NCBI GenBank assembly: GCA_017504205.1
Contig: JAFVRO010000019.1
Coordinates: 1 to 64,000 of the forward strand
DNA length: 64,000 nt
Source of the DNA: Clostridia bacterium
Lineage (GTDB): Bacteria > Bacillota > Clostridia > Oscillospirales > CAG-272
Reading direction: 5' to 3'
Positions 54,955 to 56,470 of this stretch are shown here, one piece after another. Positions within the stretch are counted from its first letter, which is position 1. Every line of letters starts with the position of its first letter. The notes beneath the pieces were generated by a model. That model did no database searches and was not told the DNA's origin. It worked only from the letters and a program-made list of their open reading frames with translations. A program made the position numbers and the translations under genes.

Positions 54955-55620
54955 TTATACGATATTCACCGCATAGCAGAACATAATGTTTCCATAAAGC
55001 CCCGGCTCGGTAACACCACCTTCAGGTTCGGGATAGTATACTGTAATGCATCTGCAATAGGTGTTTCCGGGAACAAGATCGTCGAGTGTCAGAGGCTCCT
55101 GCCGGCTCTCGATTTCGCCGAAAACATAATAGCAGTCTTTCTTTATTTCTCCCTGAAGGAGTTCGACTTTTACAACCTCGTCCGCTTCCTCCGGTCGGAA
55201 TGTTATTTCCGGCATAACTGAAGGTCTTTCCGCCGGGACATAGACGACCGGATCAAAATCGAGAACCTCAGTAATAACCCCATCATTTTCAATATAATAC
55301 CGCGCGCTCCACATATCCGCCATAGAATAACCACCAAGTTTTTCTCCATTGACAACAAGGTTCAATATGCTGCTAACACCAATCTTCGTCTGTATATATT
55401 CATACGCCTCCGGTCTTACAAACTCCGTCTCCGATTCAGGCTCGGTAACGCCGTCTTCTATCGTTTTGTCCCCCGATTCAGCGGGGTCGGAGTCGCTTTC
55501 GGGAGAGGTGTTTTCACCATCCCCCTCTGTCCCGGGGCCGGGATCGTGAGGCTTCATATCGCAGGAAAACATCGTAAAACACAGTGTGGTAATTAAAAGC
55601 AACAGCAATAGTTTTTTCAT
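54955..55620 (-). CDS. Small lipoprotein of unknown function
   Basis: 221 residues. Signal peptide of about 19 residues ending in FTMFSC (lipobox), then an acidic Gly/Pro/Ser/Glu linker (about 21-70), and a folded domain of about 150 residues that looks mostly beta-strand. No enzymatic motif is seen. The linker style resembles the other two lipoprotein types in the window. AAAGGAGG precedes the ATG; a promoter lies at 55695-55722 and an inverted repeat further upstream. It looks monocistronic. Confidence 0.75.
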   Translation of the reverse strand: MKKLLLLLLITTLCFTMFSCDMKPHDPGPGTEGDGENTSPESDSDPAESGDKTIEDGVTEPESETEFVRPEAYEYIQTKIGVSSILNLVVNGEKLGGYSMADMWSARYYIENDGVITEVLDFDPVVYVPAERPSVMPEITFRPEEADEVVKVELLQGEIKKDCYYVFGEIESRQEPLTLDDLVPGNTYCRCITVYYPEPEGGVTEPGLYGNIMFCYAVNIV

Positions 55621-55792: not shown

Positions 55793-55820
55793 GAGAAAAG
55801 GCATTTATGCAAAATGAAAA

Positions 55821-55852
55821 GAGTCCCCGGCGGCTAAAGCCGTTTGGGACTC
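55821..55852 (-). terminator. Terminator of the structured RNA transcript
   Basis: GAGTCCC and GGGACTC arms with an inner CGGC/GCCG hairpin. On the minus strand TTTTCATTTTG follows; the plus strand has TTGCTTTTTG, so it may work both ways. Confidence 0.8.
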
Positions 55853-55861
55853 TTGCTTTTT

Positions 55862-56101
55862 GTGCGTTACAATGCACAGAGGTTGGAAATATTCTGTTTC
55901 CCCACCGAGCCGTGTGCCGGGATATGGAGACCCTGTTCTCCAGGGCGGTGCTCTATCCTACGCTTTACTGCTCCCAGCGTCCTTGGACGGGCCGAGACAA
56001 GTCAATCGGGGTGTCGCCAAGGGAGGTCTGCAAACCACGTCGGAACCATTATTTCGAGCTCCTTTAACTACTTGTGGGTCTAATTACCCAACATCACGCA
56101 C
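55862..56101 (-). ncRNA. Structured noncoding RNA candidate (6S RNA possible, family not assigned)
   Basis: Within a 500-bp gene-free stretch, the minus strand forms a closed structure: GTGCGT (56096-56101) pairs with ACGCAC (55862-55867). Inside are hairpins GGGT/ACCC (56076-56089), CTCCC-TTGG/CCAA-GGGAG (55971-56025) and CCCTG/CAGGG (55931-55945) enclosed by GGATA/TATCC. A terminator follows at 55821-55852. No reading frame here has a ribosome site. It lacks the marks of RNase P RNA, tmRNA, SRP RNA, T-box and 5S rRNA. Length near 240 and the closed ends allow 6S RNA, but I cannot confirm it. It starts about 20 bases after the DUF1292 stop and probably shares that promoter. Confidence 0.6.
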
Positions 56102-56121
56102 TAAGCAGGATGAAATTCAAA

Positions 56122-56409
56122 TCAGATACCGTCGCAGTCGATCTCGGCGGTGAACATATCGTCGAAGAGGTCTGCCACGTCGTCGAACTCGTCGTCATCC
56201 TCGATGAAGTCGAAGGATGGCTCGCCGTTGGTCATCTCCTCGCGGATGATGAGATAATTCTCAAATGCACCGTCCTCGCATTCCTCGGGGTTTACTATTG
56301 CGTAATACGTTTTTTTCTTATACACGCATTCTCCGACCACCTCGAAGGTGATCTCATTACCGTTTTCGTCGAGAAGGACGAAGTTTTTTGGTGTATTGAT
56401 CTCGCTCAT
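56122..56409 (-). CDS. DUF1292 family protein (YrzB-like)
   Basis: 95 residues, a small acidic cytoplasmic protein of the DUF1292 family, present in nearly all Firmicutes and of unknown function. The N-terminal half is beta-rich (FVLLDENGNEITFEVVG, then YYAIVNPEE) and the tail is very acidic (DDDEFDDVADLFDDMF). It is driven by a perfect sigma-A promoter at 56442-56470. The structured RNA candidate follows at once on the same strand. Confidence 0.9.
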   Translation of the reverse strand: MSEINTPKNFVLLDENGNEITFEVVGECVYKKKTYYAIVNPEECEDGAFENYLIIREEMTNGEPSFDFIEDDDEFDDVADLFDDMFTAEIDCDGI

Positions 56410-56441: not shown

Positions 56442-56470
56442 ATTATACTAGATTTCCGTGTTTTTGTCAA
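56442..56470 (-). promoter_or_regulatory. Perfect consensus sigma-A promoter for DUF1292 and the RNA candidate
   Basis: Minus strand TTGACA (56465-56470), exactly 17 bases, TATAAT (56442-56447). Apart from the rRNA promoter at 202-230 and the one at 9217-9245, it is the only full-consensus promoter seen. Confidence 0.85.

Follow-up and report, generated by a model that had tools for sequence, protein, structure and literature searches.

A divergent 6S RNA gene located behind a DUF1292 gene in an uncultured clostridial bacterium

Comparative analysis of a 64,000-nucleotide stretch of DNA (the window) has revealed that the element located at about 56114-55895 of the minus strand is, with a probability of roughly 97%, an ordinary though divergent 6S RNA; it adds a new member to a known family, from which its role as a polymerase decoy is predicted. 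Homology, structure, single copy and synteny have been established here by sequence work. The locus is best explained as an ssrS-type 6S gene, present in one copy, in an uncultured clostridial bacterium; polymerase binding, pRNA synthesis and growth control are expected by analogy with the 6S family. By LepA, the closest named records come from uncultured Clostridia/Oscillospiraceae of the gut and rumen.

Rfam matches and the family model

A search of the whole 64-kb window at the Rfam gathering threshold yielded zero matches. When the threshold was relaxed, the 6S RNA model RF00013 matched 56114-55895 (minus strand) along its full length (model positions 1-187), with 29.3 bits versus a threshold of 46.4 and an E-value of 0.0021 in 3 kb. 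The 6S gene is overlooked by routine annotation because this score lies below the threshold. The limits 55895-56114 are those of the model match, which takes in a few flanking bases on either side, rather than mapped ends of the mature RNA. This was the sole RF00013 match in the assembly to which the window belongs (a 52% complete genome, 947 kb). Sub-threshold matches to ctRNA_p42d (at the terminator hairpin, on both strands) and mir-234 were considered as chance matches.

RF00013 matched 87 of the 146 family genomes, at one locus each and with no second 6S gene found in any of these 87; 37 of them exceeded the threshold, up to 77 bits, at the locus orthologous to that of the window. Class-wide, 124 of 147 genomes were above the threshold, unlike the mostly sub-threshold window family, and the weak Rfam score is therefore a peculiarity of this clade. 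A DNA similarity search with the window gave a weak result (8 of 39 genomes) and has been superseded by the models; it independently picked four genomes (G001, G002, G005 and G015) in which the places found coincide with the RF00013 loci.

A covariance model (R1) was built from a 33-sequence alignment that includes the window, so that the score of the window (151.6 bits, E-value 5.9e-35) is obtained partly by construction; the independent part of the R1 result consists of the genomes outside the 33 training sequences, that is, most of the genomes found. With this model 6S RNA was found in 135 of the 146 family genomes (98 of the 103 good ones) and in 186 of the 197 order genomes (153 of the 154 good ones); almost all of these carry one copy. 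An annotation gap is thus revealed by the recovery of 135 family genomes versus the 37 that pass the RF00013 cut-off, with about three quarters of the family genomes lacking an above-cut-off Rfam 6S match. Two 6S copies (L146 and L147), both preceded by DUF1292, are located on separate contigs of genome G150, and they may reflect duplication or contamination.

The first-pass annotation had placed a structured RNA of unassigned family at 55862-56101. The presence of an RNA gene has been upheld, with its limits and strand corrected to 56114-55895 of the minus strand, and 6S RNA, one of the options offered, has been borne out by the Rfam matches in relatives, by covariation and by the family model. 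RF00013, the model singled out there as the one to run, exceeded its threshold in 37 relatives but stayed below it in the window itself. The region had also been described as free of reading frames, which is not literally true, as plus-strand ORFs of 79-97 amino acids cross it.

Structure, covariation and predicted pRNA template

Alignment A1 brings together, end to end, 33 sequences: that of the window, the 30 best of the family and two weaker relatives. All 33 sequences share the canonical 6S layout of a long closing stem, a large central bulge and a terminal arm. Conserved sequences in A1 were found at the ends (CCUGC...CGUGAU on the 5' side and ACACGG..CGGYGGG on the 3' side), where the 5' central bulge begins (ACCYACAA) and in the terminal arm (GCAGACCUCC and GGACGUUGGGAGC). 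In the window, the closing stem P1 (55901-56109, minus strand), whose pairs were read directly, is formed by a 5' strand at 56109-56087 and a 3' strand at 55921-55901 and runs inward to a 7-bp UGUUGGG/CCCGGCA helix; P1 (helix 1 of the covariation test) showed 93.7% of cells paired and nine pairs with two-sided changes. The inner helix P2 (55928-56081, minus strand), which adjoins the central bulge, pairs AGACCC (56081-56076) with GGGUCU (55933-55928), with 89.9% of cells paired (helix 2). The terminal arm (P3 and apical hairpin, 55947-56062, minus strand) comprises helices 3-7 of the covariation test. The outer pairs are CCUGC (56109-56105) with GUGGG (55905-55901), in place of the GTGCGT...ACGCAC closing ends proposed earlier, and the RNA folds as a single long hairpin, interrupted and bulged at its centre, instead of at least four separate internal hairpins.

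The 44-pair 6S structure was paired in 90.1% of the cells of A1, and the covariation among homologues that the first-pass annotation had called for was strong, with 178 double-change cells; 500 shuffles gave 61±6.5, and sliding the partners by 1-3 columns gave 37-66. This structure was partly drawn from the same 33 sequences, which favours pairing over the slid versions but would hardly produce compensatory counts this large. In contrast to covariation, the folding energy of the single sequence equalled that of shuffled sequence (z = 0.26 on the minus strand and 0.81 on the plus strand, no signal on either), as would be expected from a chance structure in an intergenic gap without functional RNA; the covariation test refutes this explanation, and the order-wide conservation also stands against it, leaving it with practically no credit. 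The minimum-energy fold of the single sequence replaces the real stem by a competing hairpin. The absence of an energy signal means that the structure rests on comparison and not on energy, and for the same reason the hairpins noticed in the first pass carry no weight by themselves.

The 5' strand of the central bulge (56063-56075, minus strand), with ACCYAC-A conserved at its start in A1, is expected to occupy the polymerase active site as in other 6S RNAs. Hallmarks of pRNA reported in lactic acid bacteria are an A adjoining the start site and a GG at about positions 4-6 (PMC8414754). On the basis of these hallmarks, shared by the window RNA, the C at 56074 is the probable template start and 5'-GUGGGUCUAAUUACCC (56074-56089, plus strand) the predicted product, supported by a C that is conserved in A1 with an A after it and by GG near positions 4-5; the start may move by a few bases. 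The 3' strand of the bulge can form the hairpin CCCUG-GAGAA-CAGGG (55931-55945, minus strand), of the type reported in 6S RNAs from lactic acid bacteria and Bacillus subtilis (PMC8414754). It was paired in 84.2% of cells and displayed no covariation, an uninformative test, and it shares bases with P2. The GGG at 55933-55931 pairs either in P2 or in this hairpin, the two being mutually exclusive, in keeping with the refolding that 6S RNAs are known to undergo.

A conserved apical cap, UUGACUUGUC (55996-56005, minus strand), occurs at 20 of the 90 family loci examined and a second, CUUAYGUCAC-like version at 15 of the 90, with related caps in others; cap-related patterns were present in 52 of the 90 loci versus 4.9 expected by shuffling. 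The cap may act as a stable loop or as a clade-specific binding site. Like the known RF00013 members (SsrS; 6S-1 of B. subtilis and RCd3 of C. difficile), the RNA is about 200 nt long, with a closing stem, a central bulge containing a predicted template site, a candidate 3' bulge hairpin, a terminal arm and usually one copy per genome, but the terminal arm of the window clade is longer and divergent and carries the clade-specific cap. The canonical structure, the hairpin predicted here in the 3' bulge and a neighbourhood conserved at family level are also found in lactic acid bacteria (PMC8414754), where the neighbours are rarA and uspA instead of DUF1292.

Linkage to DUF1292

The gene located directly upstream of the 6S RNA (56122-56409, minus strand) encodes a 95-amino-acid DUF1292 protein (Pfam PF06949, E-value 3.8e-13), and 7 bases separate its stop codon (gene end 56122) from the 6S model match. 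Each of the 93 family loci tested has DUF1292 upstream of the 6S RNA on the strand of the latter, and the model begins 1 to 388 bases (median 28) past the stop codon. Elsewhere in the order DUF1292 was present at 11 of 12 loci, taken from other families, and it was also present at 7 of the 30 best class-level 6S loci. This class-level linkage suggests that the arrangement arose earlier or more than once. The seven class-level loci behind DUF1292 (L204, L210, L215, L221, L222, L223 and L225) showed own-promoter scores lower overall than those of the other class loci. A LepA-anchored genome set yielded few 6S loci, and the order lepA-hemW-DUF1292-6S was found only in a few close relatives. No paper joining 6S RNA with DUF1292, or 6S RNA with Ruminococcaceae, was found in the collection of papers searched. 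The steady pairing, a mildly unusual setting for a 6S gene, provides a testable idea on 6S production in gut bacteria of this group and offers an initial clue to what DUF1292 does.

The link with DUF1292 had been anticipated in the first pass and is real and conserved, but the undescribed RNA class to which it was tied has been rejected, since the locus belongs to the 6S family. A new class merely resembling 6S RNA, regulating DUF1292 or dependent on it, such as a control element in the 3' untranslated part of the DUF1292 mRNA, would agree with the conserved position right behind this gene and with the sub-threshold Rfam score of the window. However, the same locus in relatives reaches 77 bits with the Rfam 6S model, other 6S genes were not found there, and 23 of the 30 class-level 6S genes have no adjoining DUF1292 despite being members of this RNA family, which makes a new class very improbable.

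Promoters, terminator and joint transcript

A sigma-A-type promoter, TTGACA-17-TATAAT, is located before DUF1292 (56442-56470, minus strand), with 12 of 12 consensus matches, and is kept in the family; it likely serves both DUF1292 and the 6S RNA. Sigma-A promoters were scanned as the best score of 12 in equal 110-base stretches, with shuffles that keep base composition only. Before DUF1292 the mean was 9.9 (shuffled 7.5), with scores of at least 10 in 69 of 93 family loci, and -10 boxes were detected in 75 of the 93; before the 6S RNA the mean was 7.7 (shuffled 7.2), with at least 10 in 3 of 93. As a positive control, the 58 bases at the starts of class-level 6S genes scored at least 10 in 15 of 30 loci. 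Because promoters precede DUF1292 and not the 6S RNA, whereas half of these class-level genes have their own, a shared transcript is proposed, and the 6S RNA of the window is probably matured from it. The 6S gene of C. difficile, which carries consensus sigma-A elements (PMC3649979), differs in this respect from that of the window, behind DUF1292 and with no detectable promoter.

Alternatively, the 6S RNA could be transcribed from a separate promoter lying within the last part of DUF1292, unseen by a simple consensus scan, with DUF1292 as a mere neighbour. Such a scan would miss an extended or alternative sigma-factor promoter, and TATAAT-like boxes occur at a fitting place in some long-gap relatives (12 of 34 loci versus 7.0 expected), some of which may keep their own 6S promoter. 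However, at short-gap loci, the kind to which the window belongs, boxes were found in 6 of 29 versus 3.1 expected, most of them overlapping the stop codon and created by it, and the scan does pick up the promoters of other clostridial 6S genes. This alternative is considered possible but rather doubtful. A broader proposal, favoured by a narrow margin, is that throughout the order the 6S gene no longer has a promoter of its own and the RNA is processed out of a dicistronic DUF1292-6S transcript, which would tie the amount of the polymerase regulator to the expression, and perhaps the function, of DUF1292. If true, the level of a global polymerase regulator would be tied to an uncharacterised acidic protein.

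According to the proposed mechanism, the DUF1292 promoter would drive the joint transcript, from which the 6S RNA would be cut out, and a hairpin at 55854-55819 would end transcription. The 6S RNA would then form a long double helix whose central bulge resembles melted promoter DNA and bind the RNA polymerase holoenzyme with the main sigma factor, so that promoters would be blocked once growth stops. When nucleotides return, the polymerase would copy the bulge into a short pRNA, and the 6S RNA would refold and release the enzyme. The expectation of a promoter decoy released by pRNA synthesis follows what is known of 6S RNAs (C. difficile, PMC3649979; lactic acid bacteria, PMC8414754; B. subtilis, PMC12005410).

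The terminator hairpin (55819-55854, minus strand) has a 9-bp outer stem and a U-rich tail; it is symmetric, and action on the plus strand is also possible. The first pass had included a terminator within its range, and the hairpin does exist but lies just beyond it. Such terminators were present at 54 of 92 loci. Beyond the 6S terminator, a probable lipoprotein of 221 amino acids, with zero Pfam matches and a signal-like start with a cysteine, is encoded at 54955-55620 of the minus strand.
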